NCBI GenBank assembly: GCA_949751835.1
Contig: CATKHK010000022.1
Span: forward strand, 62,001 to 126,000
Length of the DNA stretch: 64,000 bases
From: Blepharisma japonicum
Taxonomy: Eukaryota; Ciliophora; Heterotrichea; Heterotrichida; Blepharismidae
Direction of reading: 5' to 3'
Shown: positions 23,101 through 49,997 of the stretch, one piece after another
How positions within the stretch are numbered: position 1 is the stretch's first letter
Layout of the letters: every line of letters starts with the position of its first letter
Notes under the pieces: generated by a model
Told to the model about the DNA's origin: nothing
Seen by the model: the letters and a program-made list of their open reading frames with translations, nothing else
Database searches by the model: none
Translations under genes and position numbers: made by a program

Positions 23101-23229
23101 TTTAAAATAATAGATCAATTAATAATAATATTGCAAAACTAATACCATGAATATTTATATATAAATCATAAATATAAAGGAAATCATCATACAATTTTGC
23201 TTTTATAAATCTACTATTATAATAATATT

Positions 23230-25902: not shown

Positions 25903-27907
25903 CTAATGAATTTCTTCATTACAGTTAGGGCATCTCGCATCTTCACCTTTCCTATCTGTCCACTCCTTTAAGCAATATTTGTGGAAAATATGTTTGCATT
26001 TTGTAATTTTCATATTTTCTTCTGTAATTCCATCAAAGCAAATTGAGCAAACTGAGTCTCCAAAAACCCATAATCTGAAATACTTAGAGAGATGTTTTGA
26101 ACACTAATTGGCCTACTGTTTTCAGAACCAATTTCACCTTCAGAATTACTTTGATTAGGGGAACTAGTATCACTATAAGAAGAATATATATGTCTAGGCA
26201 ATCTGATCTCAAAGTTACTATTAAGTGAAGGAGCCCGTTCAGAATAAATTCCATTATTAGAATAAAGTTCAACATTAGAAATAATGTCACTTTCAGAAGA
26301 AGGCCCATGCATACGCATTGACAAAGGAAGAGGCAATGGAGGTAAGTGATGAGGGGGAACTATGGAACGCAAGGGAATTAGGGGGCTAAGGGTGATGAAG
26401 GACCTAAGGGATGCGAGGGACGTGAAGGAGGTAATGGATGTGAGGGAGGCAAAGAACGCGGGGGATTATGAGTGCTATAGGCAGCGAGCTCCAGGATTTC
26501 TAAGGAGTTCTGACTTTCTCCGTCATTATATAGCGTATCTAGGTACATGATAAAATAGCGACAGCCGATACAACAGCAAACGCAACTAAATAAAAATTAC
26601 CAAGAACAACATCCAACACAGCTAAATACTGCAATTAAAATTATAGAGGTTTGGCTTAAACCTTCATCGTTACCAGAACTGTCAGAACTACTATAACTAC
26701 AAACAAGAGTGTGAACGTCATTGCAAAAATCATACAAACTGTTGCAATCTTCAAAATCATTGAAGCAAGAGTCTGCTTTACAATTTTTATTGCAATAATT
26801 ATTGCTTAAATTGTCTATTGTGCAGTCCTCACTGCAGCTATTATTACAGAGATATGATGAAAATTCAGCATAGTCGCATATGTGAGTCTCAAAGCTGTCT
26901 ACTTCATTTCGGCCCAGATCAATATGGCCTACAGAGATTCTTGGCATATTTCCACTATATTTTTCCCGTTGGATTCGGAGAAAATGATTATCTCAATAAT
27001 TATTATATCCATTTAATATTCAGGAAGAATCAATAATTTTCTGGATTTTTTCTCAGTCAATTTTGAGCCAGTTAAAAATATTTCTACTACAAGTTGTTGA
27101 ATAATCGTTGGAGCAAGAATTTGCTATTTCATATAAAAATATAGCAAAAGCGCTTAAATATAGATTATTAGTAATCGTATAATTAAGCAAAGCAAGTTCT
27201 AATAGAGTTCTATCAATCATATCTCTTCCATTAGCATTATTTACATCATCAATCATACAGTATTTATAATTGGAATAGCAATCATATGAGCTGCAATTAT
27301 CACAGTGATATGAATAATTAAAAGTAAGTTCGATATTCACTTCGTTTGCAGTGATAGGTATTAGATATGTATAAAAATTTTCAATAAACGCAGCATCATA
27401 AAAATAATTTCCGCTAAGCGCAATAGTAATATTTGGTTTTTCTGAATATATTCAGTCACGTTCAAAATTAACATAAATTAAACCCTGTTTAATTTTTCTT
27501 CATATATCAATATACTCATTTGAAATTCCAACTGCAAATATTGTGCTACGAATATCCGTTGATATCGAAACAGTATATATGCTATATTTAGACATATTCA
27601 GGACAAAAATGACACCTTGAGCTCCTCTTTCTTCGGCAATATCAACAACAGTCGAATAATCACAAGTAATATTCATAATAGCAAAGACTGTGTAGTTAAT
27701 AAATTGAGGCCATGAGCTTTCATCACATGGATTTGTATCATTTGATAAAAATCCTACAGTACCTTGAGTATGTGATGGAAATTTTCTAAAGTTGGCTGTA
27801 ATAGATGGGACGATACCATCAGGATAAAGCTTAAATAATTCTGTAGGAAATGAAACTTTTAGAGTACAATGCACTGTAATAAAAAATAAAAGTAGGATTT
27901 TTATCAT
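25903..27907 (-). pseudogene. Copy A: VSR-like/LNR/TM/RING gene, frameshifted
   Basis: Exon 1 (27907-26601) is an open frame: signal peptide (MIKILLLFFITVHC), PA domain (EERGAQGVIFVLN, IFAVGISNEYID), a Cys-rich VSR-like region (CDNCSSYDCYSNYKYC to GRDMIDRTLLELALLNY), an LNR (CTIDNLSNNYCNKNC, DFEDC) and a membrane segment. Exon 2, after the 15-nt intron, has a Pro-rich part, a Ser/Glu-rich part and a type-I RING-H2 (CSICFDGITEENMKITKCKH). Compared with copy D, exon 2 has one frame break in the Pro-rich part and a one-base loss just before the RING (DYGF, then out of frame). The total coding length is not a multiple of three. It is probably a pseudogene, or exon 2 is mis-assembled. Confidence 0.75.
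26586..26600 (-). other. 15-nt intron, copy A
   Basis: On the minus strand it reads gtaatttttatttag. It is identical in sequence and position to the introns of copies B, C, D and F. Removal keeps the membrane segment open. Confidence 0.85.
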
Positions 27908-28077
27908 ATTTTCTTATAAACTTTTGAAAATAGCTAATTCTTATATAAATTAGGCAAGATTTTTAGTGTAAATAATTACAAAAAAAAGGTAACGTTAATT
28001 TTTTAAGACTACCTGAATAGATATAACTTTACACGGCTGAATAAAAAATTATATTTTTAATTGAATCTTTTTATTTA

Positions 28078-28700
28078 TTAGTACCAAGTGACTTGAACCA
28101 ATTTCACCTTCAGAATTAATTTCACTATTAGAATGAATACCATAACCAAAGAAGGTAGCCAAAAAATTACTCTGTATATGTGTTGACCTCTGCAAAAGAA
28201 GAGGCAATGGAGATAAGGTAGGTCAGAGAGGCAAAGAAAGCGATTGGTAATAATTATTATCAGCAACAATACTCGGATTTCTAACAAATTTGGATTTTCT
28301 CGATTCCTATCGCATTTATGTAAGTAATTGGCAAAATAAGGGAAAAACACAACAAAAAGCGCAGCTAAATACTGCTATTAGAATTATAGAAGTTTTAAAA
28401 ATATTTATTGCTATAGCCAGAAAGAATTGCATGTCGTTACAGAAATCATATAAATCTTCTCAATCTTCTTTATCGTTGAAGCAAGAGTACTCAATTTAAA
28501 TATCTACATCAAATATAGTGCCTCGAGTATCTCTATGTATCAAAAATCTTTTAATTTTGAGCCAGAAAAATTATCACAAAAATAGCACGTTGTGCACCTC
28601 TCCTTTCAAAAATGTGAGCAATAGTTGAATAATGGCATGCTGTATTTTTAATGGCAAACACTTTAGCATAAAAACCGAGGCTATGAAATTTGTGCTCTTA
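28078..28700 (-). pseudogene. Relic 1 of the VSR-like/RING family
   Basis: A short decayed copy reading on the minus strand. Pieces of the acidic tail, Pro-rich region, membrane segment, LNR and PA domain occur in family order, but shortened and with many breaks. Equivalent relics follow genes B, C and D at the same place. All of them share the run tatagtgcctcgagtatct. Confidence 0.6.
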
Positions 28701-29265
28701 TTAATTAACATAATATTCATTGAATTTTATATATATTAAGATCTAATAAATAGCTATTTGTATATATTCCGAACAGCATTAAAAGTAAAATAGTACAAGC
28801 TTTGCTATAGTCTTCACTTAAAATTCGCTAAAGCCTTATAAATTTTTGCTCTATTTCTTCTTTTAGGCTTATGATTTTTGAAAAATTTTTATAAAAATAA
28901 TACGATCTTTTAAATTCTTTTTAAGTGACACTCTAGAATCATAACTATAAGCACTTAGCTAGTTCAGTTGAAAGATAAAAGGTCAACTCTAGCAAAGAAA
29001 CGTAAAATTCATTAGTAAACATTAATTATTAATTTTATCAGCTTCTTTTTGATTATCAAATCTTATCCTTTTGGATTTCACATATCTTAGATTACCATCG
29101 TACAAGTAGCTTCTTAGCTTCTTAAAAGTCTAAAAAGCTCATATGAATTACTATCAAAAATTTATTTTATTTTAATAAGAACTGCTTAAATTATAAAACA
29201 CAAATTTTTATGCAGAAAATTAAGCCAAAATTAATCTTTCTAACCATTTTTGTATTAAAATATGA
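28701..29265. repeat. Spacer duplicated at 40040-40678
   Basis: This AT-rich spacer downstream of copy B closely matches the spacer downstream of copy E, for example around tcttagattaccatcgtacaa, ttcttagcttc and the final tatgcagaaaattaagcc. The match shows that B and E share a downstream flank as well as a tail type. Confidence 0.55.
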
Positions 29266-31559
29266 TTACGAAAGATTTGCTCTGCACATAGGGCATCTTG
29301 CTCTTGCACCATTGTTTCCTATCCACACTCTCAAGCAACGCTCATGGAAAATGTGCATGCATTCTGTAATTCTAATATCGCTTTGATCAATATTATCTAA
29401 ACAAATTGGACAATTATGCACTTCATTTATTGAACTTCGTCTTGAGCTAGCTTGAGACGCTTGAGGAGCTGATGGTTGATAAGGTGGCAAGTTCCCTATC
29501 GCCTGTATTGCTGACTGATAAAGCTGACTTAAAAACTGCAAGATTTCTTGAGGGTTTTGCATAGGTGGTAAATTTGCATTTTGGTTATAAAGAGCAACAG
29601 CCTGTAAAATTTCTTGAGGATTTTGCACAGGAAGATGCCCAGCAAATTGATTATAAAAATAGATAGCCTGCTGGATTTCTCTCAAATTTTGTATAGGAGA
29701 TAATCTAGCAAATTGATTATAGAAAGAAACAGCCTGCTGAATTGAAAGAGAGTTTACAATAGGAGNNNNNNNNNNNNNNNNNNNNNNNNNNNNNNNNNNN
29801 NNNNNNNNNNNNNNNNNNNNNNNNNNNNNNNNNNNNNNNNNNNNNNNNNNNNNNNNNNNNNNNNNGGCATTGCATTTCGTTCCTGGCCCTGAAGATTTCT
29901 ATAAGCATTGTAACTTTGAGAAGAAGGCATATTCATAGGCCTCGGTAAAGGAAGAGGCAATGGAGATAAGGGAGGAAGGGGATTTAAGCGACGTAAGGGA
30001 ATTAAGGGAGGTAAGGATAATGAAAGGCGTGAGGGAGGCGAGGGAGGTGAGGGAGGTGAGGGAGGCAATGGAGGTGAGGGAGGTGAGGGAGGCAATGGAG
30101 GTGAGGGATGAAAAAGGCGCGAGGGGTTATGATTGTTATTGGCAGCAAGCTCCCGGATTTCTAAGGAGTTCCGATTTTCTCTAATCCTATTTGCCTTATC
30201 TAGGCAGTTGAAAAAATAGAAAGAGCTGAAGAAACAGCAAACGCAGCTAAATAAAAATTACAATCCAACAGAGCCAAACACTACAATTAAAGTTATAGAG
30301 GTTTGGCTTAAATGTCTATCGCTACCAGAACTGTCAGAATTACTATAATTACATACAAGATTGCGCACATCATAACAAAAATCATACAAAGTGTTGCAAT
30401 CTTCAAAATCATTGAAGCAAGAATCTGCTATACAATTTTTATTGCAATAACTATTGCTTAAATTGTCTATTGTGCAGCTCTCACTGCAGTTATTATTACA
30501 GAGATATGATGAAAATTCAACATAGTCGCATATATGAGTTGCAAAGCTGTCTAATTCATTTCGGCTAAGATTAATATAGCCCACGGAAATTCTTGGCATT
30601 AATCCACTATTTTTATGCAGTTGGCTTTGAAGAAAATGATTATCTCAATATTTATTATATCCATTTTGTATTCAGGAAGAATCAATAATTTGCTGGATTT
30701 TTTCTCAGTCAATTTTGAGCCAGTTTAAAATATTTCTACTACAAGTTATTGAATAATCGTAGTAGCAAGAATTTGCTATTTCATATAAAAATATAGCAAA
30801 AGCGCTTAAATATAGATTATTAGTAATCGTATAATTAAGCAAAGCAAGTTCTAATAGAGTTCTATCAATCATATCTCTTCCATTAGCATGATTTGCATCA
30901 TCAATCATACAGTATTTATAATTCGAATAGCAATCAGATGAGCTGCAATTATCACAATGAAATGAATAATTAAAAGTAAGATCTATTTTCACTTCGTTTG
31001 CAGTGATAGGTATTAGATATGTATAAAATTCTTCAATAAACGCAGTATCATGAATATAATTTCCAGTAAGCCCAATTGTAATATTTGGTTTTTTTCAAAG
31101 TATATAGTCACGTTCAAATTGAACAGTAATTTGACCCTCTTTGAATTTTCTTCATATATCAATATCAAATTTTGTAATTCCAACAGCAAATATAGTGCCA
31201 CGAAAATTTGCGTGCATAAAATCGTGATTTAAACTATTTTTGGGCATATTCAGGAAAAAAATAACACCTTTAGCTCCTTTTCTTTCTGCAATGTCAACAA
31301 CAGTCGAATAATTGCAGGTAATATTCATAATAGCAAAAACTGTATAATTAACAAATTTAGGCCATGAGGTTTCATAGCATGGATTTGTATTGTTTGGTAA
31401 AAATCATACAGAGCCATAAGCAGGATTAGGAAAATTTCTAAAGTTAGGGGTAATAGATGGGACAATACTATCAGGATAAAGCTTATATAATTCTGAAGGA
31501 GATAAGACTTTTAGCTTGCAAAGTGCTGTAATAAAAAATAAAAGTAGGATTTTTATCAT
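29266..31559 (-). CDS. Copy B: VSR-like/LNR/TM/RING protein, type-II tail, contains N gap
   Basis: Exon 1 (31559-30262) encodes a signal peptide, PA domain (ERKGAKGVIFFLN), VSR-like Cys region (CDNCSSSDCYSNYKYC, GRDMIDRTLLELALLNY), LNR (SESCTIDNLSNSYCNKNC) and membrane start. Exon 2 (30246-29266) encodes a Pro-rich juxtamembrane stretch, 22-residue repeats ([18 protein letters not shown]) and a RING-H2 (CPICLDNIDQSDI, CMHIFHERC, CPMC). A 100-N gap (29766-29865) interrupts the repeats. Reading frames on its two sides differ by one, but the same region in copy C is 164 nt, which would bring them into register. The gene is probably intact in the organism. Likely role: membrane-bound E3 ubiquitin ligase of the endomembrane system (inferred). 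Confidence 0.8.
29766..29865. other. Assembly gap of 100 N
   Basis: Exactly 100 N, a conventional placeholder size. It lies inside the repeat-encoding part of copy B, where near-identical 66-nt repeats would be hard to assemble. Confidence 0.97.
30247..30261 (-). other. 15-nt intron, copy B
   Basis: On the minus strand it reads gtaatttttatttag. Without its removal the frame ends at TAA just after the membrane segment begins. Confidence 0.87.
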
Positions 31560-31744
31560 ATTATCTTATAAACTTTTGAAATATCTAAACCTTCTATAAA
31601 TTTTACACAATTTTTAGTGTGAATAATTACAAAAAAAGGTAAAATTAAGTTTTAAAACTGCTTGAATATAGGCTGAATAAAAAATTTATATTTAATTGAA
31701 TCTTTATATTTATATTCAAGATTATTAACTTTAAACTAAAATTC

Positions 31745-32530
31745 TGAAAATTATTATCTTTTAATGAATTTGCTTATTAAAATTAGAGCATTTCGCATCT
31801 ATCTATGCCTTTAAGCAATTTTTATGAAAATATCTTCGATCTTTAATTTTTGCTAACATAAACAAATTGAGCAAGTTGCGTCTCCAAATCCCATAATTTG
31901 AATTATTTTTTAAGATGTTCTGATTTCAGAGCTACAGTCAAGTTGACGCAATTTCACCTTCGGAACTAATTTCACTAGCAGAATGAATACCATAGCCAGA
32001 AGAAGGCATCAGAAAATTACTCTGTATATGTGTTGATCTCTGAAAGGAAGAGGCAATGGAGGCTACAGTAAGAAAATTCAAAGGAAGCGAATAATAATTA
32101 TTATCAGAAGCAATACTCAGATTTCTAACTAGTTCTGATTTTCTCGATTCCTATCGCACTTATGTAAATAATTGGCAAAGTAAAGGGCAAAACACAACAA
32201 AAGCTCAGCTAAATGCTGCTATTAGAATTATAGAAGTTTTAAAAATATTTATTGCTATAGTCAGAAAGAATTGTACGTCATTACAGAAATCATATAAATC
32301 TTCTCAATCTTCTTTATCTTTGAAGCAAGAGTACTCGTTTTAAATAACTATATCAAATATAGTGCCTCGAGTATCTGTGGATACAAAACATCTTTTAATT
32401 TTGAGCCAGTAAAACTTAACACAAAAATAACACATTGGAAACCTCTGCTATCAAAAATGTAAGCAATAGTTGAATAATCATAAGCTATATTTGTAGCATT
32501 TGTCTGTAGAATTAAAACCGAAGCCATGAA
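31745..32530 (-). pseudogene. Relic 2 of the VSR-like/RING family
   Basis: A decayed minus-strand copy with RING remnants at its low end (gagcatttcgcatct, aaattgagcaagttgcgtctcc), then acidic tail, LNR and PA remnants. Multiple breaks are present. It is closely similar to relics 1, 3 and 4. Confidence 0.65.
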
Positions 32531-32990
32531 AATGTGTTCTGCTTTATATTTTTGCTAAATTATTTATATGATGCTCTGTAAAATAGTGATTTTTTATATT
32601 ATTTGTCTTCTTGTTTGCAAAATAATTCGGAAATTGTCTTTGTATGTAAGGTCTAAATAAAATGCTGCATTGTCAAAGAAGATAAACCTCTCTGATTAGC
32701 AGTTGATTATAATTAAAATTCGCTGTAAGCATTTTAATGCTGCTTTTGATATTTGATAAATGATTCCGTTACTATTGCTTTAGCTATCTTTCTTTTCTTA
32801 TTGAGAATCTCAATCTCATCATCTTCAATGAGAGTTAATTAAACTCTTAAAGTTTAAAGCATAAAAAATCTTATAAAATAAATCATTTCATTATTTATTA
32901 TAAGAACTGCTTAAATTATAAAACACAAATTTTTATGCAGAAAATTAAGCCAAAATTAATCTTTCTAACCATTTTTGCATTAAAATATAA
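32530..32990. repeat. Spacer duplicated at 36240-36600
   Basis: It shares long stretches with the spacer downstream of copy D, for example gctctgtaaaatagtgattt, ttgtcttcttg and ttgagaatctcaatctcatc. The last 60 bp instead match the flank of copy B. Confidence 0.55.
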
Positions 32991-35291
32991 TTACGAAAGA
33001 TTTGCCCTGCATATAGGACAGCTTGCTCTTGCACCTCTGGTTTCTATCCACACTCTCAAGCAACGCTCATGGAAAATATGCATGCATTCTGTAATTCTAA
33101 TATCCCTCTGTTCAATATTTCCTAAACAAATTGGACAATTATGCACTTCATTTATTGAACTTCTTCTTGAGCTAGCTTGAGACGCTTGAGGAGCTGATGG
33201 TTGATAAGGGGGCAAATTCCCTATCGCCTGTATTGCTGACTGATAAAGCTGACTTAAAAACTGCAAGATTTCTTGAGGGTTTTGCCTAGGTGGTAAATTT
33301 GCATTTTGGTTATAAAGAGCAACAGCCTGTAAAATTTCTTGAGGATTTTGCACAGGAAGATGTCCAGCAAATTGATTATAAAAATAGATAGCCTGCTGGA
33401 TTTCTCTCAAATTTTGTATAGGAGATAATCTAGCAAATTGATTATAGAAAGAAACAGCCTGCTGAATTGAAAGAGAGTTTACAATAGGAGGTAGTCCCGC
33501 GTACTGATTATAAAAATCAATGGCCTGCTGAATTTCTTGCAAATTTTGTATTGGAGGCATTCATACGTATTGATTATAGAAAGAAATTGCCTGCTGAATT
33601 TCTTGAGGATTTTGTATTGGAGCTACTGGTGCAATTCGTTGATATTGGGAATTTGGCATTGCATTTCGTTCCTGGCCCTGAAGATTTCTATAAGCATTGT
33701 AACTTTGAGAAGAAGGCATATTCATAGGCCTCGGTAAAGGAAGAGGCAATGGAGATAAGGGAGGAAGGGGATTTAAGCGACTTAAGGGAATTAAGAGGGA
33801 CAAGGGTAATGAGGGAGGTGAGGGAGGTGAGGGAGGCAATGGAGGTGAGAGAGGAAAAAGGCGCGAGGGGTTATGATTGTTATTGGTAGCAAGCTGCAAT
33901 GTATTTGAGTGGTTTTGATTTTTTCTAAAGTTGATAAAATAATCGCAGCCGACACAACAGCAAGTACAGCTAAATAAAAATTACACCCAACAAAATCCAA
34001 CACAGCTAAACACTATAATTAAAATTACAGAGGTTTGGCTTAAACCTTCATTGCCATCAGAGCTGCTATCACTACTATAATTACATACAAGAGTGTGCGC
34101 GTCATAACAAAAATCATACAAAGTGTTGCAATCTTCAAAATCATTAAAGCAAGAATCTGCTTGACAATTTTTATTGCAATAACTATTGCTTAAATCATCT
34201 ATTGTGCAGTTCTTACTGCAGCTATTTCTACAGAGATGTGATGAAAATTCAACATATTCACATATATGAGTTTTAAAGCTGTCTAATTCATTTCGGCTAA
34301 GATCAATATCGCCTACGGAAATTCTTGGCATTAATCCATTATTTTTATACAGTTGGCTTTGAAGAAAATGATTATCTCAATATTTATTAGATCCATTTTT
34401 TATTCAGGAAGAATCAATAATTTGCTGGATTTTTTCTCAGTCAATTTTAAGCCAGTTTAAAATATTTCTACTACAAGTTGTCGAATAATCATTGTAGCAA
34501 GAATTTGCTATTTCATATAAAAATATAGCAAAAGCGCTTAAATATAGATTATTAGTAACCGTATAATGAAGCAAAGCAAGTTCTAATAGAGTTCTATCAA
34601 TCATGTCTGCTCCATTTGCATGATTTACATCATCAATCATACAGTATTTATAATTGGAATAGCAATCATATGAGCTGCAATTATCACAATGATATGAATA
34701 ATTAAAAGTAAGATCTATATTCACTTCGCTTGCAGTGATAGGTATTAGATATGTATAAAATTCTTCAATAAACGCAGTATCATAAACATAATTTCCAGTA
34801 AGCCCAATCGTAATATTTGGTTTTTCTCAAAGTATAAAGTCAGGTTCAAATTGAACAGTAATTTGACCCTGTTTGAATTTTCTTCATATATCAATATCAA
34901 ATTTTGTAATTCCTAATGCAAATATAGTGCCACGGAAATTTGCGTGCTTAAAATCGTGATTTAAACTATATTTGGGCATATCCAGGAAAAAAATAACACC
35001 TTTAGCTCCTTTTCTTTCGGCAATGTCAGCAACAGTCGAATAATTGCAGGTAATATTCATAATAGCAAAAACTGTGTAATTAACAAATTGAGGTCATGAG
35101 GTTTCATAGCATGGATTTGTATTGTTTGGTAAAAATCATACAGAGCCATAAGCGGGATTTGGAGTTTTTCTAAAGTTAGGGGTAATAGATGGGACAATAC
35201 TATCAAGATAAAGCTTATATAATTCTTTTGGAGATAAGATTGTTAGCTTGCAAAGTGCTGTAATAAAAAATAAAAGTAGGATTTTTATCAT
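32991..35291 (-). CDS. Copy C: VSR-like/LNR/TM/RING protein, type-II tail (intact)
   Basis: Two exons (35291-33985 and 33969-32991) give 761 residues with no break. Signal peptide 1-16; PA domain about 60-150; VSR-like Cys region about 190-300 (CDNCSSYDCYSNYKYC, C-S-R-N-I-L-N-W-L); LNR about 354-388 (CTIDDLSNSYCNKNC, CFNDFEDC); membrane segment about 421-450, split by the intron; Pro-rich juxtamembrane part; six 22-residue repeats about 545-680 ([16 protein letters not shown]); RING-H2 714-757 (CPICLGNIEQ, CMHIFHERC, CPIC). The PA + VSR-like lumenal part suggests cargo binding in the secretory or endosomal system; the RING suggests ubiquitin ligase activity. Both are family inferences. In-frame TGAs encode Trp. 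Confidence 0.85.
33970..33984 (-). other. 15-nt intron, copy C
   Basis: On the minus strand it reads gtaatttttatttag. Removing it joins GT to C (Val) within the membrane segment. Unspliced, the frame meets TAA. Confidence 0.87.
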
Positions 35292-35459
35292 ATTATCTTA
35301 TAAATTTTTGTAATAGCTAAACCTTCTATAAATTTGGCAGGATTTTTAGTACCAATAATTACCAAAAAAGGTAAAATTAATTTTTAAAACTGCCTGAATA
35401 GATAGGCTGAATACAAAAATATTTTAATTGAATCTTTGTTTTTATATTTAAGATTATTA

Positions 35460-36240
35460 ACTTTAAACTATTAATTCTGAAAATATTATCTTTTAATGAA
35501 TTTACGAATTAAAATTAAAGCATTTCACATCTATGCCTTTAAGCGATTTTTATAAAAATATCTTTGATCTTTAATTTCTGCAACATAAAACAAATTGAGC
35601 AAGTTGCTTCTCCAAAACCCCATAATTTGAATTATTTTCTAAAGTGTTCTGATTTCATAGCTACAGTCAAGTTGAGCCAATTTCACCTTCAGAACTAATT
35701 TCACTAGCAGAATGAGGACCATAGCCAGAAGAAGGCAGCGGAAAATTACTCTGTATATGTGTTGACCTCTGCAAGGAAGAGGCAATGGAGGGTATGCAGT
35801 AAGGAAATTCAAAGGAAGCGAGTAATAATAATTATCAGCAGCAATACTCGGATTTCTGACTACTTCCGATTCCTACTTCACTTATACAAATAATTGGTAA
35901 AGTAAAGGGCAAAAATAAAAAGCTAAATACTGCTATTAGAATTATAGAAGTTTTAAAAATATTTATTGCTATAGCCAGAAAGAATTGCACGTCGTTACAG
36001 AAATCATATAAATCTTCTCAATCTTCTTTATCTTTGAAGCAAGAGTACTCGTTTTAATACATATATCAAATTTAGTGCCTCGAGTATCTCTATATATCAA
36101 AGCATCTTTTAATTTTGAGCCAGAAAAATTTAGTAAAAAATAGCACGTTGAAAGCCCTGCTTTCAAAAATGAAAACAATAGTTGAATAATTAAAGGTTAT
36201 AATTTGTAATATTTGTCTGTAGAATTAAAACTGAGGTCAT
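35460..36240 (-). pseudogene. Relic 3 of the VSR-like/RING family
   Basis: A decayed minus-strand copy, collinear with relics 2 and 4: RING remnant, acidic tail, LNR remnant, then a PA remnant containing gtgcctcgagtatctc. Many breaks are present. Confidence 0.65.
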
Positions 36241-36914: not shown

Positions 36915-39095
36915 CTAATGAATTTCCTCATTGCAATTAGGGCATCTCGCATGTTCACCTTTCCTATCTGTCCATTCCTTTAAGCAATTTTTGTGAAAAA
37001 TATGTTTGCATTTTGTAATTTTCATATTTTCCTCAGTGATTCCATCAAAGCAAATTGAGCAAACTGCGTCTCCAAAAAATCCATAATCTGAGATACTTTC
37101 AGATCTATTTTGAGTTTTAATTCTGTTTCCGAAGCGACTGTTAAGTCTCCTGCTACTATCAGGACCAATTTCATTTTCAGAACTACTGTTAAGTGACCTG
37201 CTACTATCAGGACCAATTTCATTTTCAGAACTACTTTCACTAGAGGAACTACTTTCACTAGAGGAACTACTAGAGGAACTACTTTCACTAGAGGAACTAG
37301 TATCACTATGAGAAGATGGCGAAGCCTGTTGAGATTCAATTTCACTGTTAGAGCCAACTCCAATATTAGAAGCCACATCACTTTCAGAAGAAGGCACATG
37401 CATAGGCCTTGGCAAAGGAAGAGGCAAGGGAGGTAAGAGATTAGGAGGAGCAGGAGGAGGAATAGGAGGAGGAACAGGAGGACGAACAGGAGGACGAACA
37501 GGAGGACGAACAGGATGGCGAACAGGAGGACGAACAGGAGGACGAGCAGGAGGAGGAGTAGGAAGTAAGCGACGCAAGGGAATTCCGCGGGGTAAGGCTA
37601 GTGAGGGAGGTGAAGGAGGTGAAGGAGGTAATTGATGTAAAGGAGGCAAAGGGGGCGGGGGATTATGATTGTTATTGGCAGCAAGCTGTAAGATATCTGA
37701 GGGGTTCTGATTTTCTTCCTTATTTATATAATTGATAAAATAGCGACAGCCGATACAACAGCAAATGCAGCTAAATAAAAATTACAACGAGCAAAATCCC
37801 ACACAGCTAAACACTGCAATTAAAATTACAGAGGTTTGGCTTAAACCTTCATCGCCATCAGAGTTGCTATCACTACTATAACTACAAACAAGAGTGTGCA
37901 CATCATCACAAAAATCATACAAACTGTTGCAATCTTCAAAATCATTGAAGCAAGAATCTGCTTTACAATTTTTATTGCAATAACTATTGCTTAAATAGCC
38001 TATTGTGCAGTTCTCACTGCAGCTATTATTACAGAGATGTGATGAAAATTCAGCATAGTCGCATATATGAGTTGCAAAGCTGTCTACTTCATTTCAGCCA
38101 AGATCAATATAACCTACGGAGATTCTTGGCAATACTCCTTCATATTTTTGCCGTTGGATTCGGAGAAAATGATTATCTCAATATTTATTATATCCATTTT
38201 GTATTCAGGAAGAATCAATAATTTGCTGGATTTTTTCTCAATCAATTTTGAGCCAGTTTAAAATATTTCTACTACAAGTTGTTGAATAATCGTAGTAGCA
38301 AGAATATGCTATTTCATATAAAAATATAGCAAAAGCGCCTAAATATAGATTATTAGTAATCGTATAATTAAGCAAAGCAATTTCTAATAGAGTTCTATCA
38401 ATCATATCTCTTCCATTAGCATTATAAACATCATCAATCATACAGTATTTATAATTGGAATAGCAATCATATGAGCTGCAATTATCACAATGATATGAAT
38501 AATTAAAAGTAAGATCTATATTCACTTCGTTTGCAGTGATAGGTATTAGATATGTATAAAATTCTTCAATAAACTCAGCATCATAAAAATAATTTCCAGT
38601 AAGCCCAATCGTAATATTTGGTTTTTTTGAATATATTCAGTCACGTTCAAATTGAACAGTAATTTGACCCTGTTTGAATTTTCGTCACATATCAATATAA
38701 TCTTTTGAAATTCCAACTGCAAATATAGTGCCACGAATAACTTCGTACATAAAATCATCATATAAACTATATTTAGACATATTCAGGACAAAAATAACAC
38801 CATAAGCTCCTTTTCCTTGGGCAATGTCAACAACAGTCGAATAATTACAGGTAATATTCATAATAGCAAAGACTGTGTAGTTAACATAATAAGGCCATGA
38901 GGTTCCTAGGCATGGATTTGTATTGTTTGGTAAAAATCCTACAGTGCCTCAAGTGTGAGTTGGAAAATTTCTAAAGTTAGGGGTAATAGATGGGACAGTA
39001 CCATTATCAATATAAAGGTTATGTAATTCTGAAGGATATAAGACTCTCAGCTTGCAAAGTGCTGTAATAAAAAATAAAAGTAGGATTTTTATCAT
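36915..39095 (-). CDS. Copy D: VSR-like/LNR/TM/RING protein, type-I tail (intact)
   Basis: Two exons (39095-37786 and 37770-36915) give 721 residues with no break. The lumenal part is nearly the same as in copies A-C: signal peptide, PA (GKGAYGVIFVLN), VSR-like Cys region, LNR (CTIGYLSNSYCNKNC) and TM. The tail differs from B and C. It has a Pro-rich stretch with repeated R-P-P-V, a long Ser-run acidic region with a duplicated block (SENEIGPDSSR) and a RING-H2 of another subtype (CSICFDGITEENMKITKCKH, CPNC) ending at TAG. Probably a membrane E3 ligase. The tail is homologous to that of copy F and to broken copy A. Expression from a conserved upstream block shared with B and C is likely. Confidence 0.85.
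37771..37785 (-). other. 15-nt intron, copy D
   Basis: On the minus strand it reads gtaatttttatttag, identical to the other copies. Confidence 0.87.
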
Positions 39096-39239
39096 ATTAT
39101 CTTATAAACTTTTGAAATATCTAAACCTTCTATAAATTTGACATTTTTAGTGTGAGTAATTACAAAAAAATCTAAAATTAATTTTTAAGACTCTGAATAT
39201 ATAGGCTGAATAAAAAATTTATATTTTAATTGAATCCTT

Positions 39240-40040
39240 GTATTTATATTTAAGATTATTAACTTTAAACTATTAATTCTGAAAATTATTATCTTTAATG
39301 AATTTGCTCATTAAAATTAAAGCATTTCGCACCTATCTATGCCTTTAAGCAATCTTTATGAAAATATCATTGATCTTTAATTTTCTGTAACATAAAACAA
39401 ATTAAGCAAGTTGCGTCTCCAAAACCCCATAATTTGAATTATTTTCTAAGGTGTTCTGATTTCATAGCTATAGTCAAGTTGAACCAATTTCACCTTCAGA
39501 ACTAATTTCACTAAAAGAATGAATACCATAGCTAGAAAAAGGCATCTGAAATTACTCTGTATATGTGTTGACATCTGCAAAGAAAGAAAGGAAATTCAAA
39601 GGAAGCAAGTAATAATTATTATCAGCAGCAATACTTGGATTTCTGGCTAGTTCCGATTCCTACCTCACTTATGCAAATAATTGGTAAAGTAAAGGGCAAA
39701 AACAACAAGACCACAGCTAAATACTGCTATTAGAATTATAGAAGTTTTAAAAATATTTATTGCTATAGCCAGAAAGAATTGCACGTCGTTACAGAAATCA
39801 TATAAATCTTCTCAACGTTCTTTATCGTTTAAGCAAGAGTACTCGTTTTTAATACCTACATCAAATATAGTGCCTCGAGTATCTGCAGATATCAAAAATC
39901 TTTTGATTTTGAGCCAGAAAAATTTAGTACAAAAATAAAACATTGGGAACCTCTGCTTTCAAAAATGTAAGCAATAGTTGAATAATTAACAGGCTATATT
40001 TGTAATATTTGTTTGTAGGATTAAAACCAAAGCCATGAAT
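39240..40040 (-). pseudogene. Relic 4 of the VSR-like/RING family
   Basis: A decayed minus-strand copy, collinear with relics 2 and 3, upstream of the start of gene D. It has RING, acidic, LNR and PA remnants with many breaks. Confidence 0.65.
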
Positions 40041-40678
40041 ATGTGTTCATCTTCTGAGCTTCATTAAAAGTCAAATAGTAGGAGCTTTGTTGTAGTTTTC
40101 ACTTAAAATTCGCTTAGGTCCCTTATAAATTTTGGTTCTATTTCTTCTCTAAAGATTTTTGATTTTTGAAGAGGTTTATAAATAAGATACGGTCTTTTAA
40201 ATTCTTATTTTAAATGGCTCAAGAATCATAATATAACCACTTAGCAAGTTCAGCTGAAAGATAAAAAGTCAACTCTATTAAAAACGTCCAGATTCATTAA
40301 TAAACATTAATTAATAATTTTATTAAAATTGCTATTTTTGACAATCAAATCTTATCTTTTTGATTTTTCACATATCTTAGATTATCACTCTACAAGTAGC
40401 TTCTTAGCTTCCTAAAATCTTGAAAGCGCATATTTTTTACTATCAGGAATTTATTTCTTTTAATAAGAATTGCCTAAGAGATGCTGAGATGACTTTATAC
40501 ATTACGTGTGCACTAGCTGCGGTTGCATATGGCAGCAGGCTTCATTCACAAGTTGAGAACTGGTTTCAATAGCAGCAATATTTATTTTAAAAGAACTGCC
40601 TAAATTATAAAACGTAAATACTTATGCAGAAAGTTAAGCCAAGACTAATTTTTCTAACCATTTTGCATTAGAATATGA
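40041..40678. repeat. Spacer duplicated from 28701-29265, with a 127-bp insertion
   Basis: Collinear with the spacer downstream of copy B except for about 127 bp (about 40477-40603). The insertion is bounded by two imperfect copies of ttttaataagaactgcctaa and has a higher GC content than the flanks. No frame is evident in the insert. Confidence 0.5.
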
Positions 40679-43468
40679 TTATGAAAGATTTGCTCTGCAA
40701 ATAGGACATTTTGCTCTTGCACCATTGTTTTCTATCCACGTTCTCAAGCAACGCTCATGGAAAATATGCAAGCATCTCGTAATTTTAATATCCCTCTGTT
40801 CAATATTTTCTAAGCAAATTGTACAGTTATGCACTTCATTTATCGAGCTTCTTCTTGAGCTAGCTTGAGACGCTTGAGGAGCTGATGGCTGATGAGGGCC
40901 ATCTTGGAGTTGCAAATTCCCTACCTCCTGTATCGCTGACGGATAAAGCTGACTTAAAGACTGCACGATTTCTTGAGGGTTCTGCATTCGTCTTAAATTT
41001 GCATTTTGGTTATAAAGAGCAATAGCCTGCAAAATTTCTTGAGGATTTTGCACTGGAGCAAGTCCAGCAAATTGATTATAAAAGTAAATAGCCTGCTGGA
41101 TTTCTCTCAAATTCTGAACAGGAGATAATCTAGCAAATTGATTATAGAAAGTAACAGCCTGCTGAATTGAGAGGGAGTTTAGAATAGGAGGTAGCCCTGC
41201 GTATTGATTATAAAAATCAATAGCCCGCTGAATTTCTTGCAAATTTTGTATAGGAGGCATTCAGACGTATTGATTATAGAAAGAAATTGCTTGCTGGATT
41301 TCTTGAGGATTTTGTATTGGAGCTACTGGTGCAATTCACTGATAATGAGAAATTGGCATAGCAATTGATGCCTGATCTTGAAAATTTCTAGGCTGATTAA
41401 GACTTTGATTTGAAGGAGAGTAATGCTGCAATCGATTTGACTGCTGGGATGGACTTAGAGCTGGCACTTGTACAATTGCACGTGCGGACTGATTATACTC
41501 ATTTATAGCTACCTCAGCCGTTTGAGCTCGGCTATTTCTACGTTCATTTTTTCCTTTATAATATTGATGGAAATACACTATTAAGCAATAGGTTGGAATA
41601 GATAATATGAATAGTCCTACTGGAACTAGAACTGAGATAAGGATAATATCTGTTTTACTGTAGCTAGAATCAGAACTTGAGTCTGATTTTGAACTGGATC
41701 CTGAGTCTGATCCTGAGTCTGAGTTTGAGTCTGAGCCTGAGTCTGATCCTGAGTCTGATCCTGAGTCTGAGCCTGATCCTGAGTTTGAGCCTGATCCTGA
41801 GTTTGAGCCTGATCCTGAATTTGAGCCTGATCCTGAGTTTGAGCCTGATCCTGAGTTTGAGCCTGAGCCTGATCCTGATCCTGAGTTTGAGCCTGATCCT
41901 GAGTTTGATCCTGATCCTGAATGCGAATTAGAACCTGATCCTGAATGAGAATTTGAGCCTGATCCTGAATGCGAATTAGAACCTGATCCTGAATGCGAAT
42001 TTGAGTCTGATCCTGAGTGCGAATTAGAGTCTGATCCTGAATGCGAATTAGAACCTGATCCTGAGTGCGAATTAGAACCTGATCCTGAATGAGAATTTGA
42101 GTCTGATCCTGAGTGCGAATTAGAACCTGATCCTGAATGCGAATTTGAGCCTGATCCTGAATGTGAATTTGAGTCTGATCCTGAATGCGATTTTGAGTCT
42201 GATCCTGAATGCGAATTTGAACCTGATCCTGAATGCGATTTTGAGTGTGATCCTAAGTTTCGTCCTGGATCTGACCTTGAGCCTGATCTTAAGTTTCGGC
42301 TCGGTCACGAGCCTGATTCTGAGTTTATATCTATTTTTTCTTGTTCCCGTTTACAGTCTTCAATATCATATGCACATGAATCTGTTTTACAGCTAGAGTC
42401 GCAAAAGTTATTATCTATTCCCTTTAAATCACATTGACTGCTACACTTACCACTACATATATCCGACGAATTCCCTAAGCTCCTGCAAATATAATTTTGA
42501 ATAAGGTCTGTTTCATATTCAAAAAACTCTTTATTATCAATAAAGACCGCATTTTTATCTTTAATATTTCTTTTCACCCAACTTTGCATTTGGCTTATAA
42601 TTGTTGAGTGGCCTCATATAGAGGATTTGATTGAGTTTATAAAGGTAGGATCGATATCCAGTAACTCAAGAATTGTTTTATGGCAGATATCTGTATAGTC
42701 ATTTTTGCAAAAACTTATAGTAAAGTGTAAAAACATTGCAAAATCTCCATAATATACTTTATTTTTGATTACATACTCGAGTAAAGCTAATTCATAAAAA
42801 GTTCTATCAATCATCAATTTTTCTTGATTTTCGTCTAAATTATGGAGACAATAATATTCAATATTGCCCTCAGGTTTACTTGACTGGCATCTAGAATAAT
42901 TGAAAAGCAGCTCTATATTAGCCTCGTTTACTTTTAAAGGAATTAGCGATTTATATAATTTCTCAATAAAATCCTTATCAGTGTAATAATCTCCGCTAAG
43001 TATAATTGTAATAGTTGGCTTTTTAAAAATCAAATCTGGCTCAAAGGAAATATTTATAGTTCCATCTGAATAATATTTCCATGAATCAATATATTTATTA
43101 GAAATCCCTACAACAAATATGGAGCCATTTTCATTTTTGGGTAATAAAGCTCTATTTAACTCTAAATCGGTTACATTCAGTGAAATAATAATTCCAGCTA
43201 CATTGGCAGCGGCAGGAATTTCAGGAGGATATCCACAACTTGTATTTGAAATTATATTTATTTTTGAAGGATAATAAGTATAATTATCGCATCTTGAGCT
43301 TGGTAAAAATACAGCATTTCCATTGATTCCGCTTTGTGGGATTTTTTCAGAACTTGCTGTAGTAGAGGGAACGATGCCATTTGGATAAAGTTGAACGAGT
43401 TCTGGGGGATATAGAAGCTTCAAAGTGCAAAATGCAGAAGCTAAGAGTAAACTAAAGAATTTTAGCAT
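40679..43468 (-). CDS. Copy E: divergent VSR-like/LNR protein with Ser-Gly stalk and type-II RING tail
   Basis: One uninterrupted frame of 929 residues, crossing several TGA=Trp codons. Signal peptide 1-16; PA domain to about 150; VSR-like region to about 290 ([15 protein letters not shown] kept, but CxxC lost); LNR about 337-375 ([20 protein letters not shown]); a stalk of about 210 residues with Ser at every second position (SGSGSN, SDSNSH) 388-597; membrane segment about 604-633; then a tail with 22-residue repeats (about 715-850) and RING-H2 ([26 protein letters not shown]) closely matching copies B and C. No intron is present at the membrane segment. The lumenal half is far more diverged than the tail, which points to tail exchange. 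Confidence 0.82.
41680..42305 (-). repeat. Low-complexity 12-18 bp repeats coding the Ser-Gly/Asn/His stalk
   Basis: About 625 bp of short imperfect repeats around gatcctgagtctga (plus strand). Read in the gene frame they give alternating Ser with Gly, Asn, Asp or His. Such repeats mutate in length easily, so the stalk is likely to vary between cells or strains. Confidence 0.8.
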
Positions 43469-43959
43469 CAGAATTCTTACTATTTATTATTTCATAATTG
43501 CTTTATTAATTATTCTATAATTTTTTAGAGATTTGTAAGGTTTTATTTGCTCCTCTAAGTAGAATTCCAAAGCAAAAATTTGAATTTACAATGGAATTAT
43601 TTTATTTATTTTGGAAAAACTTTAATATGGCAAGCTTTCTATTCTGCATGAAGATATAATGAATCATGCATTTAAGAACATTTTAAATCGATTGATTTTA
43701 TTATCTTTCTTGAAATCTTACAGATTATAATCTTAGCACATAAGCTTTTTGCTGCAAATAGAAAATATGCTGTTTTAGCATTTAACGCTTTCTAGGAATT
43801 TGAGAAAGTAGACATAACAAATTGTCTAGCATACTCCATAAAAAATAATAATAGAAGCTTGATTAGTTCCCATAATAATTTTTAATCTTTCCAATCTCAT
43901 TGCCTCAAATTTTTCGCAGAATCTTATCCTAAATAATTTTATTTTTAGATTATAATTAT
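43469..43959. other. Spacer upstream of copy E
   Basis: AT-rich. It contains the promoter side of gene E and no recognisable frame. The conserved upstream block of copies B, C and D is not evident here. Confidence 0.35.
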
Positions 43960-44640
43960 TTTATAAAATTATTATTTCAATTAGGGCACTGTGCAATTTT
44001 AGCCTTTTTATTTTTTCGTTCTTTTAAGCATCTTCATGGAAAAATGTCCTGGTAACTTGTAATTTCTTTTTTATAATTTTCTTTTTTTTCTAAAGCAAAT
44101 TGTGTGCACCAGATCTCCATAAATCCCATAACCCATGTTTTTATCATTTTAAGAATAGCAGCTTCTTATTCTCATTCTACGCAAAGTTTTCGAAGCTCTG
44201 CAGAATGATTTAGCTATTCATTATTAGTAGTATTTCTGGCATACTCAGAATCGCTTGATAGTCTCCACAATTGCTGTAAAACAATCCTTTCTGGCAAATT
44301 TATATGATGGCTATTTTGATTTGCTGGCTGCTGAATTTCTTGATTATTTTCATTATTTGACTTGCAGCGTCTTTGGATGCATCAAATACAAAAATCTAGA
44401 TAACAAGTAAGCCTAATTTTTGCAATAATATTTGATAACTTCTTTGCAAAACCAAATACTCTTACAGTCAAAGATATGATTTAAGCATATTTCTGTTTGC
44501 ATAATTTTTGGAAGATTTCGTTTTCTAAATCGTTTATGGAGCAATGATTGTTACACGCCACAATATGAAAAGGTGAAGATCAATTAGAGCTACAAAGGCT
44601 TAAATATTGTAAAATATAAGACAAGCCGTTTAAATATAAT
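43960..44640 (-). pseudogene. Relic 5 of the VSR-like/RING family
   Basis: RING remnants at the low end (ttagggcactgtgcaatt, catcttcatggaaaaatgtcc, caaattgtgtgcaccagatc), then a tail remnant with NNENNQEIQQPANQN, then an LNR remnant (CNNHCSINDLENE). Heavily broken and more diverged than relics 1-4. Confidence 0.5.
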
Positions 44641-44984
44641 TATTGTTTATTTCAAATTTGAGGGACAACTTTTATTTTCTTTTTTTTTTCAAATGCTTGC
44701 CTGGCTTCTAAGAATATCATTGTGATCCGAGGCACTATATTTTTAAATATTTTTTGATTTATAACTGTAAACGAATAAAAATTTTAATATCACAATTTTT
44801 ATAATTTTAGTAATTTTATTAAATTCAAATAGTTTGGATTTTATAAATTAAATTATTTAAAATTTTACTTTAAGAATATTTCAAATTGAAATCTTGTTAA
44901 GTTAAATAACAAAAAAATGTATATAATATATATAAGAACTTTAATCCCCTTTGATTATCTGCTCAAGGAGGGTGTAAACAAAGT

Positions 44985-45340
44985 AATTTCTAATAGGGTA
45001 CTATCAATCATATCTCTTCCGTTAGCATGATTTACATCATCAGTCATGCAGCTATCTTTACTTAATTTATTTTATAATGCAGAAAATATTTGTCTCAAAA
45101 CAGTAATAATTGAAATTTATAATTCCAAGCAACTTTTCTTATTTTACTTTATCAATTGGAATCACAATGGTAGTATATACATAATCGGATTACAATAATA
45201 TGAACTGCAATATCGCACCAATAAGAATAATTAATATTATGCTCCATATTAACTTCGTTTGCATTTATAGGTATTAGATATATATATCATTCTTCAATAA
45301 TCGCAACATCATAAAATAATTTCCACTAAGAAAAAATAAA
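44985..45340 (-). pseudogene. Relic of the VSR-like ectodomain upstream of copy F tail
   Basis: Contains actatcaatcatatctcttc and gttagcatgatttacatcat, the codons for HANGRDMIDR of the VSR-like region. Further pieces of the Cys region and the ITANEV segment follow. Many breaks and deletions are present. Confidence 0.6.
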
Positions 45341-45544
45341 AGTAAAATTTTTATAATATTATTTTATAAACTTTAATAATTGAAATTTTCATGCTCATTA
45401 TTACAAATAAAATTGCAGCCCTAGTATTCCAAAGCTGCTTGAATTAATAAAGCTTTATATAGTTAAATGAACAATGGGATTTTAATTGAAGGTCTATATT
45501 TTTATAAATTAACTTAAACTTAAACTAGTAAAAGTTATCGTCTT

Positions 45545-47512
45545 CTAATGCATTTCCAAGTTGCAATTAGGACATTTCGCATTTCTCCCTTTCGCATCTG
45601 TCCATGCCTTTAGGCAATCTTTATGAAAAATATGCTTGCATCTTGTAATTTTCATATTTTCCTCTGTGATTGCATCAAAACAAATTGAGCAAGTTGCGTC
45701 TCCAAAAAACCCATAATCATTATTATTTTCAGAGTTATTCTCAGCTCTAGGCCTGATTTCAGAGTCTATTTCAAGTGGCATACTGCTCTCATAGTCAATT
45801 TCACTGTCAGAACTAATTTCACTGTCCAAACGAATATCATTGCTAGAATCTGGTGCTGGAAAGCGTACTCTGGGTATACGTCTCTGCAAAGGAATATTGT
45901 TTTGAGCTCTAAATCTACTCTCAAGTTGTCTATCACTATCAGGAACATTTTCACCTCCATAAATAATAATTTCAAAATCAGGACGACTTTCATTGGCAGA
46001 AGAAGGCCTCCGTAAATTTAATCTGTGCATAATATGTCTAGGCACCTGTGAGGGAGGTAAGGAAGGTGAAGAAGGCAAAGGAAAATTGTTGTCAGGAGCA
46101 GATTCTGGGACTTCTGACGAGTTCTCATTTACTCTAACCTTAAGGCGCTTACCTATAAAATAAAGGAAACAAGCAGAGCAAAAAGTCCAGCTAAATAAAA
46201 ATTACCATAAAAAAAATCCAGCACAGCTAAATACTGCAATTAGAATTACCGAAGTCTTGCTTAATCCTCCATCGCTATATTTACAAACATGAGTGTGTAT
46301 GTCGCTACAAAAATCATGCAAACCATTACAATCTTGAATATCATAAAAACAAGAGTCTTCTTTACATTTTCCATCGCAATGGCCGTTGTCTAAATCATCA
46401 ATTGTGCAATCATTGCCACCACAAACATCATCACAGTTAAATTGTGCATATGAAATATAATTACATATATATCCTCCGACACCATATCCTTGACCTAAGC
46501 CAAGCGTGATATTACCTATGGAGATGCTTGGTATAGGTTGAGAATAATTTTTTAGTACCCATTTGTCATGCTGTCATCTGAGTAAACGATTATCTCAATT
46601 TTCCATATTTAAATTTGACATTCAAGAAGCGTTAATAACACCTTGGATATATGCTGAGTCAACTTTGAGCCAATTCAAAACATTCATAGCACATTTTGGT
46701 GAGTAGTCATTAGAGCAAGAATTTCCTATTTCATATAAAAATATAGCAAAAGTACCAAAATATAAGTTATTAGCAATTACATAATTAAGCAAAGCAATTT
46801 CAAATAGAGTTCTATCAATCATTTCTCTTCCATTAGCATGATTTGTATTATCAATCATACAGTACTTATTATCAGAATAACAATCAAATGTGCTGCAACT
46901 AGAGCATCCAAATGAATAATTAAAATAAAGATCTATATCCATATCACTTGAAACAATAGGGATTAGATATGAATATCATTCTTTAATAAATTGTGCATCA
47001 TAATAATAATTTCCGCTAAGTGCAATAGTAATACTTGGTTTTTCATAATATATTCAATCGCGCTCAAAAGAAACCATTATTAGTCCCTGCTGAATTTTTC
47101 TTCATATATCAATATGTTCATTTGAAATACCTACAATAAATATAGGGCTGCGAACGTCTGTAGATATCAAAACATCCTTTAATTTTGAACTAGGCAAATT
47201 CAGCACAAAAATAACACCTTCGGCTCCTCTTTTTTCGGCAATTTCAGCAACAGTCAAGTAATCACAAGTAATGCTCATAATAGCAAAAACTGTGTAATTA
47301 ACGGATTGAGGCCATGAGCTTTCTTCACATGGATTTATATCGTTTGGTAAAAATCCTACATTGCCTTGACTGATTATTGGAAATTTTCTAAGGATAGCAG
47401 TAACCGAAGGGACAATGCTTCTATTAGGATAAAATCTGGATAGTTCTGGAGGGGATAAAATAATAAGCTCGCAAAACGCTGTGATAGAGAACAAAAGTAG
47501 GATTTTTATCAT
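45545..47512 (-). CDS. Copy F: VSR-like/LNR/TM/RING protein, type-I tail (intact)
   Basis: Two exons (47512-46206 and 46190-45545) give 650 residues. Signal peptide (MIKILLLFSITAFC), PA (EKRGAEGVIFVLN, IFIVGISNEHID), VSR-like region (CSSCSTFDCYSDNKYC, GREMIDRTLFEIALLNYVI, C-A-M-N-V-L-N-W-L), LNR (CTIDDLDNGHCDGKC, CFYDIQDC), TM split by the intron, acidic tail with Asp/Ser/Glu, type-I RING-H2 (CSICFDAITEENMKITRCKH, CPNC), stop TAG. The tail lacks the long Ser runs of copy D. It is the outermost, more diverged intact member and may be close to the ancestral type. TGA=Trp at several places. Confidence 0.84.
46191..46205 (-). other. 15-nt intron, copy F
   Basis: On the minus strand it reads gtaatttttatttag, unchanged even though the flanking exons have diverged from those of copies A-D. 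Confidence 0.86.
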
Positions 47513-47779: not shown

Positions 47780-48000
47780 TATTATGGTTTAATCAAAGCA
47801 TATTGAGCAAGCTGCATCTCAAAAAAATCAATTATTTCAATGATTTTCAGAGCTACTTTGGACAGATATTCTGATTTCTGAGCTGTTTTCAATTCTCCTG
47901 CTACTTCCAGAATTAATTTTACTATCAGAAGATGAATGCCTATGTCTTGACCTGCTATTTTCTATACTAGTTTTCAATGAATTAGCCTGATGGCTTGCCT
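47780..48000 (-). pseudogene. Relic 6: tail/RING fragment
   Basis: A small remnant containing caaagcatattgagcaagct (CSICFD region), then a Ser/Glu-rich acidic tail remnant. It lies upstream of copy F in the same relative position as relics 1-4 to their genes. Confidence 0.5.
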
Positions 48001-49795: not shown

Positions 49796-49997
49796 AATAA
49801 TTATTATAATGGCAGATTTATAAAAGCAAATTTTATACTAATTTGCTTTAAATATAATTATATTGGAATTATTAAGCTGCTCATACATTACAAGCTTACT
49901 CAACTATCATTTTTTCACAAAATTAATTGAAATGATAAAGCTTTTAGCTTTCAACATAAAGAATGAAATGTAGAGAAATATTTTAAAACAATTTTTA

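Follow-up and report, generated by a model that had tools for sequence, protein, structure and literature searches.

Plant work treats the vacuolar sorting receptors (VSRs) and the RMR proteins as two receptor classes that have the PA domain in common and differ in their tails. In the same account, the RING-H2 domain is ascribed to RMR only and not to VSR, RMR RINGs are described as E3 ligases whose activity requires an isoleucine (Ile234), and the role of the RING in sorting is raised as a question (PMC12552968). VSRs are called plant-specific in the abstract of the AtVSR1 structure paper (PMC11052993), but they have also been reported in diatoms, watermolds and alveolates (PMC5264500), so that a VSR in a ciliate is not new. 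Here we analyzed a window of 64,000 nucleotides from the ciliate Blepharisma japonicum (assembly GCA_949751835.1, contig CATKHK010000022.1, here C22, positions 62001-126000), which contains six tandem genes (copies A to F) that appear to join a VSR lumenal part to a transmembrane (TM) segment and a cytosolic RING-H2 domain. The family was surveyed within this one genome (45.2 Mb, 224 contigs). Its domains are known singly. The VSR-RING arrangement, for which the sequence evidence is good, was found nowhere described: titles and abstract openings in the open-access literature contained no description of a VSR-RING protein among the matches listed.

All six genes are on the minus strand, in a head-to-tail arrangement (Table 1). 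Their frames are read with TGA as tryptophan, and for Blepharisma stoltei a 41-Mb AT-rich genome with UGA as tryptophan and introns mostly of 15 and 16 bp is reported (PMC9942806). The number of in-frame TGA codons is 8 in C, 7 in D, 4 in E and 6 in F, and every one of these frames closes on one TAA or TAG. From the N-terminus, the predicted proteins comprise a hydrophobic stretch (judged by eye to be a signal peptide), a PA-like region with a cysteine pair, a Cys region, an LNR-like module, one TM segment according to hydropathy, a long low-complexity cytosolic arm that is Pro/Ser- or Gln-rich, and the C-terminal RING-H2. Copy E also has a lumenal Ser/Gly/Asn-rich repeat. The 15-nucleotide intron (GTAATTTTTATTTAG) is identical in sequence in five copies (A-D and F). 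An 819-residue model of copy E (L017) was rejected, its intron call being spurious. Copies A and B are not proven intact, as the arm of A has at least two frame breaks (the RING frame itself is open) and the repeat-rich arm in the tail of B is interrupted by an assembly gap of 100 N (29766-29865).

We have little doubt, from profile comparisons, that PA and VSR-type thioredoxin (TRX) homology and a RING occur within one gene. The TRX part of the argument rests on profile scores that far exceed those of the controls, on corresponding cysteine columns and on the existence of intermediate genes elsewhere in the genome. A TRX-only hidden Markov model (HMM), trained on eight VSRs from the same genome, scored 44.6 bits for copy A, 43.2 for D, 41.4 for F, 40.7 for B and 38.2 for C. 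The highest of 3000 shuffles reached 10.8 bits, and no outsider among 714 open reading frames (ORFs) exceeded 9.0 bits. When TRX alone was compared with the VSRs, hhalign gave 97.4% for A-D and F, and comparison of the whole lumenal part of the six copies with four VSRs extended over 342 columns (E 3e-17). Copy E is not matched by the TRX profile (8.9 bits), and its degenerate TRX region was located by alignment with the other copies; despite the loss of motifs its ectodomain is still 35-37% identical to theirs.

The first-pass annotation of this DNA had proposed a VSR central domain in each copy, from the order of five motifs in the Cys region. For A-D and F both the order and the domain identity hold, with small changes (GADMI in C, GREMI and CAMNVLNWL in F, CSRNIFNWL in A), while copy E has none of the five motifs. 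The resemblance is also not confined to the PA domain, since the TRX-only HMM and hhalign match separately. Direct searches were less productive. Window copies were not listed for Pfam's own VSR_TRX model, a PDB profile search that used the window family directly gave no VSR match, and the predicted fold of the whole lumenal part had a pLDDT of 36.9. Foldseek with a TRX-only model (copy B) returned nothing significant, a DsbA-like protein being best (E 0.33). The fold comparison that the annotation had suggested thus gave no VSR match in the PDB, and the evidence comes from HMM and hhalign comparison with the VSRs of this genome.

A PA domain had likewise been claimed for each copy. Profile comparison supports it in A-D and F (hhalign, PA only versus VSRs, 96.7%, E 3.5e-10), and the PA cysteine pair is present in all six copies. 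In Pfam, PA remained below cut-off in A-D and F (E-values 0.0033 to 0.14) and was not listed for E. An LNR had been placed where plant VSRs have EGF repeats. Pfam LNR is weak in the window (E-value 0.021, copy E only), and a profile specific for this genome matched E and F (E 6e-4 and 1e-3) but not A-D, although the cysteine pattern of the module is kept in all six copies. No EGF family was listed by Pfam for the members of the hybrid family that were scanned, but the VSRs of the same genome lack EGF, too.

These VSRs are eight intronless genes (L001-L008, on contigs C3, C10, C82, C119, C47, C63, C48 and C28), all detected by Pfam VSR_TRX; VSR fragments on C33 and at the contig ends of C41 and C53 are not included in this count. 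L001, the only one tested, matched AtVSR1 in the PDB at E 1.4e-50. All eight have no space for EGF repeats between TRX and TM, so that EGF is not universal in VSRs, and all have a short YxxPhi tail (YIAL, YFAM, YFAL, YFSL or YFMI). A further VSR may be split across the contig ends of C41 and C53, and the C33 copy appears broken.

Hybrid genes were also found at two other places. On contig C62, an intronless ORF of 373 residues contains both VSR_TRX (E 1.3e-13) and RING_2 (E 1.7e-11) above the Pfam cut-off, with nothing convincing for PA upstream (best E 0.045). Contig C5 has three tandem genes for proteins of 685-712 residues with PA-like, TRX, LNR (4, 4 and 3 stretches), TM and RING parts. 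RING and LNR are above the Pfam cut-off in all three, and PA is sub-threshold in two and unlisted in the third. In an unrooted TRX tree, the ten hybrids (six window copies, three from C5 and C62) fall on one side of a branch (100/99), with C62 outermost as drawn.

At the residue level we compared 19 rows (AtVSR1, the eight VSRs of this genome, C62, the three C5 proteins and the six window copies). In most hybrid rows, ten cysteine columns known from the VSRs of this genome are found again, nine of which AtVSR1 has as well; among the exceptions, copy E has lost three, one C5 protein (L019) two and C62 four. A CxxC is found in all eight VSRs, all three C5 proteins and five of the six window copies and is gone from C62. 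AtVSR1 has C-x3-C at the corresponding site (PMC11052993). A-D and F retain the proline of the presumed cis-Pro segment, which E has lost along with the CxxC. Two further cysteine columns, present in AtVSR1, the eight VSRs and C62, are both missing from all nine C5 and window proteins. Joint loss is the pattern expected of disulfide partners, and by our own assignment the two columns would fit the published alpha1-alpha4 bundle disulfide of AtVSR1 (PMC11052993). The equivalent of AtVSR1 Arg95 (numbering inferred), a PA residue that goes with the binding of vacuolar sorting determinants in VSRs, is present in 5/8 VSRs and in 0/9 C5 and window proteins.

The claim that every tail ends in RING-H2 was borne out. 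Of the tails, D, E and F were scanned with Pfam, and RING_2 exceeded its cut-off in each; the genome-wide RING search matched all six window RING sites, and the C3H2C3 ligands and the CxIC isoleucine are kept throughout. This isoleucine we take to be the equivalent of Ile234 of RMR.

The origin of the tail was approached through 31 regions of the genome. This is a non-random set, mostly of RINGs resembling those of C62 or E and of loci with PA or TRX matches, in which 39 RING genes were predicted, including C62 and C5, with a gene finder that permits only GT-AG introns of 15 or 16 nucleotides. A single intron in the middle of a single TM helix occurs in 19 of the 39 (the three C5 genes and 16 others) and not in the remaining 20, one of which (L070) encodes a multi-span protein with an intron in one span; in L071 the intron lies outside the TM. 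The TM-helix intron is at the same place in window copies A-D and F and absent from E, from C62 and from all eight VSRs. Within the TM-RING class this intron is found at L041, L042, L052-L058, L060, L061 and L066, and it is useful as a descent marker. Conserved intron phase was dropped as evidence: all single-intron calls are phase 2, including those of L070 and L071, and the intron finder favours introns that would otherwise give an in-frame stop.

Twelve of the genes (at L042, an array on contig C85, and at L048, L052, L057, L060, L061, L063 and L066) represent the bare chassis, with 162-267 residues, one or two LNR patterns and no PA or TRX; 10/12 have the TM intron. LNR was above the Pfam cut-off in five of six members of the TM-RING class that were scanned, the five all belonging to these twelve and the sixth (L049) being one without an LNR pattern beforehand, and LNR is absent from some members of the class. 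The L042 array (C85:34000-42800) consists of five tandem LNR-TM-RING genes of 162-198 residues, and the genome as a whole is very rich in LNRs, with at least 148 matches.

Resolution was low in a RING tree of 45 rows, which nevertheless united A, D, F and C5 (94/91). They also belong to a set of 24 rows (88/88) with C62, nine of the 12 LNR-TM-RINGs and all eight other TM-RINGs. The RINGs of B, C and E are outside this set, on long branches, and the only strong relatives of the E tail in the genome are B and C, the next RINGs being found at E 4e-12 or weaker. Because of the shared TM intron, which none of the eight VSRs has, and the grouping of RINGs with local TM-RINGs, it is highly likely, as far as comparison within this genome goes, that a VSR lumenal part was grafted onto a pre-existing TM-RING chassis. 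C62 has no TM intron, which would be compatible with more than one order of the graft events. The annotation had seen two sorting-receptor classes combined in one protein; the VSR head and the RING tail are there, but the RING domains of A, D, F and the C5 genes cluster with TM-RINGs of the same genome, in a tree that contained no plant or animal PA-TM-RING. RMR as the RING donor was not supported, since each of the ten Pfam PA matches with E<=0.01 belongs to a VSR locus or VSR fragment, although divergent PA domains can escape Pfam, as those of the window did.

The hybrids are thus predicted to be type I membrane proteins in which a VSR lumenal part (PA and VSR-type TRX) stands on a TM-RING-H2 chassis that is found independently in the genome. 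Like VSR/BP-80 (AtVSR1, PDB 8r4y and 9b1r), they are type I with PA followed by a TRX-like central domain and most VSR cysteines. Unlike VSRs, they have a long arm and RING-H2 (208-319 cytosolic residues in C, D, E and F) and no short YxxPhi tail, and unlike plant VSRs they have an LNR-like module in place of EGF; the C5 and window proteins have also lost one helix disulfide (by our assignment) and the inferred Arg95 equivalent. With RMR and Goliath-GRAIL-RNF13 they share a lumenal PA, a single TM and a cytosolic C3H2C3 RING-H2 with the CxIC isoleucine, so that a ubiquitin output would be expected, but they differ from these in the VSR TRX and LNR-like module and in a TM-RING part that belongs to the local TM-intron class. 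The layout of this part is that of the local LNR-TM-RING proteins, whose ectodomain has little beyond the LNRs.

The tails themselves were exchanged between paralogs, which was unexpected. Among B, C and E, RING identity is 82-87%, and it falls to 32-38% when they are compared with A, D and F. The ectodomains of A-D, by contrast, share 75-86% identity; between C and D, the ectodomain is 80% and the RING 33% identical. At the DNA level, nucleotides 1-1590 of copy C match D (87-88%, in two pieces) and nucleotides 1602-2301 match E (88%). From this mosaic, B, C and E have a second (Q-type) tail in common through apparent recombination between paralogs, distinct from the N-type tail of D and F. 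As B and C carry the same change, one event before their split suffices. An assembly error is a possible explanation for B, because of the N gap, and an unlikely one for C. By eye, the Q-type arm of C contains about six 22-residue repeats with FYNQ-like cores.

The two tail types differ in lysine content. The cytosolic part has one lysine in 319 residues in C (none in the last 309), none in the 165 residues after the gap in B, and four in 301 in E (two in the RING), versus eight in 278 in D and eight in 208 in F. The contrast lies in the RING, with six lysines each in the N-type RING regions counted (D and F) and 0-2 in the Q-type, and N-type arms are also lysine-poor outside the RING. Cytosolic lysines elsewhere number 10-16 in 148-161 residues (C5), six in 90 (C62) and 5-13 in 58-135 (other TM-RINGs). 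C, D, E and F each have 19 cytosolic arginines, a normal content in the lysine-depleted tails. Disordered proteins of the ubiquitin system, many E3 ligases among them, are reported to contain lysine deserts frequently (PMC10169902). We read the lysine-poor tails as support for working E3s, and in B, C and E they would argue against autoubiquitination of the tail.

Between the copies or next to them, tblastn detected ten relic fragments in six places (E<=1e-3), and the window holds a tandem birth-and-death array of six copies and relics. Pairwise ratios of nonsynonymous to synonymous substitution rates (dN/dS) were obtained for the 10 pairs that A, B, C, D and F form, in each of three regions. 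The 30 values ranged from 0.25 to 2.26, with 24/30 between 0.3 and 0.9 and three above 1 (C-D in PA; B-C and B-D in the short region of LNR and TM). These suggest fast evolution and fall short of proof of positive selection.

The local chassis is well supported; the function that we infer is less certain. The best overall explanation, which we moderately favour, is a luminal ligand receptor with a ubiquitin output. The PA/TRX part would bind a soluble or luminal ligand in the Golgi or endosome lumen or at the surface, and the single TM span would relay this to the long low-complexity arm. The RING-H2 would recruit an E2 and ubiquitinate the receptor itself or membrane partners, which might direct receptor and ligand to multivesicular bodies and digestive vacuoles. 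VSR-type recognition would then be coupled to the ubiquitin output known from RMR, replacing the YxxPhi tail that the VSRs of this genome have kept. The output may not be the same for the two exchangeable tails, and with only 0-2 RING lysines as opposed to six the Q-type would act mainly in trans. An active E3 is likely, given the conserved ligands and isoleucine; whether the receptor sorts its ligand or has another role is an even call. A bolder version, a third class of luminal sorting receptor, is tentative and rather doubtful. Here the VSR head would be a plug-in on a modular TM-RING chassis, whole E3 tails would be swapped by recombination in the low-complexity linker, one head type would be wired to either a lysine-bearing RING or a lysine-free tail, and the CxxC may be redox-active. 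Our estimate for it was slightly lowered because lysine is scarce in the N-type arms, too, beyond the RING.

Somewhat unlikely, but the strongest competitor to a sorting receptor, are cell-surface recognition receptors (for food, mating or self), with the VSR ectodomain as a fast-changing ligand head and the tail serving ubiquitin-based down-regulation. The birth-and-death array with its relics, the high dN/dS values, the exchange of tails among copies and the loss of the inferred Arg95 equivalent would all be in keeping with this, as would the tails of D and F, in which the only YxxPhi is YGFF next to the RING. However, the arms of C and E hold several YxxPhi, the CxxC, the cysteine pair of PA and most of the VSR cysteines have been retained, a single-copy VSR-RING gene (C62) also exists, and the dN/dS values are pairwise estimates rather than a formal site test. 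The CxxC itself, set against the C-x3-C of AtVSR1, could instead point to a redox quality-control receptor, in which the CxxC and cis-proline segment would reduce or sense luminal disulfides and report via the RING. That the proline disappears together with the CxxC in E fits this idea, and the AtVSR1 authors leave catalysis by the TRX domain open (PMC11052993), but C62 has lost the CxxC and the cysteines may be structural; we consider the idea improbable. Slightly less probable still is a decaying array in which most copies are pseudogenes or near-neutral leftovers. Relics at six places, the frame breaks in A, the degenerate TRX of E and several dN/dS values near 1 speak for decay, while the fully open frames of C, D, E and F (650-929 residues, one terminal stop), the zinc ligands in 6/6 RINGs and the cysteines and intron in common speak against it. 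Finally, the missing direct Pfam or PDB sequence match of the window copies might mean that the Cys region resembles VSRs by chance or convergence and not by homology. This we consider very improbable, with scores far above shuffles and real ORFs, cysteines that correspond column by column, and C62 and C5 as intermediates.

The array offers natural constructs, similar heads with exchanged RING tails, in which it is testable whether head or tail sets the destination. The PA-TRX unit of VSRs seems to be a mobile module, and a CxxC has been kept in each of the eight VSRs found in this ciliate where AtVSR1 has C-x3-C.

Table 1. Features of the hybrid array (window coordinates; positions of PA-like regions are approximate).
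Feature	Position	Strand	Details
Copy A	25905-27907	-	exon 1 26601-27907; 15-nt intron 26586-26600; RING 25918-26049
Copy B	29266-31559	-	exon 1 30262-31559; intron 30247-30261; Q-type tail; RING 29281-29415
Copy C	32991-35291	-	intron 33970-33984; 761 aa spliced; Q-type tail; RING 33006-33140
Copy D	36915-39095	-	intron 37771-37785; 721 aa spliced; N-type tail; RING 36930-37061
Copy E	40679-43468	-	single exon, no TM intron; 929 aa; Q-type tail; RING 40694-40828
Copy F	45545-47512	-	intron 46191-46205 inside TM helix; 650 aa spliced; N-type tail; RING 45560-45694
PA-like region, A	27440-27856	-	sub-threshold Pfam PA, hhalign
PA-like region, B	31092-31508	-	sub-threshold Pfam PA, hhalign
PA-like region, C	34824-35240	-	sub-threshold Pfam PA, hhalign
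PA-like region, D	38625-39044	-	sub-threshold Pfam PA, hhalign
PA-like region, E	43022-43417	-	unlisted by Pfam
PA-like region, F	47042-47461	-	sub-threshold Pfam PA, hhalign
VSR-type TRX domain, A	26873-27439	-	TRX HMM, hhalign
VSR-type TRX domain, B	30525-31091	-	TRX HMM, hhalign
VSR-type TRX domain, C	34257-34823	-	TRX HMM, hhalign
VSR-type TRX domain, D	38058-38624	-	TRX HMM, hhalign
VSR-type TRX domain, F	46460-47041	-	TRX HMM, hhalign
Degenerate TRX region, E	42482-43021	-	alignment with other copies
LNR-like module, E	42353-42436	-	local LNR profile
LNR-like module, F	46328-46408	-	local LNR profile
LNR-like module, A-D		-	degenerate
Recombination breakpoint, C	33690-33702	-	D-like upstream (88%), E-like downstream (88%)
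Relic fragments of another copy	28349-28661	-	tblastn
Relic fragments of another copy	32187-32491	-	tblastn
Relic fragments of another copy	39298-40065	-	tblastn
Relic fragments of another copy	44979-45316	-	tblastn
Single relic fragment	35922-36050	-	tblastn
Possible relic tail fragment upstream of F	47792-47917	-	E 9e-5

Rfam and tRNA scans across the window gave no match. Elsewhere in the window, a plus-strand frame at 3213-4388 combines a PUB and a CAP domain, both above the Pfam cut-off, which is an odd pairing. Kelch motifs were above the Pfam cut-off at 48707-49837 and 60241-61539, and the stretch at 23209-24972, which flanks the array on the opposite side, looks by eye like that at 48707-49837.

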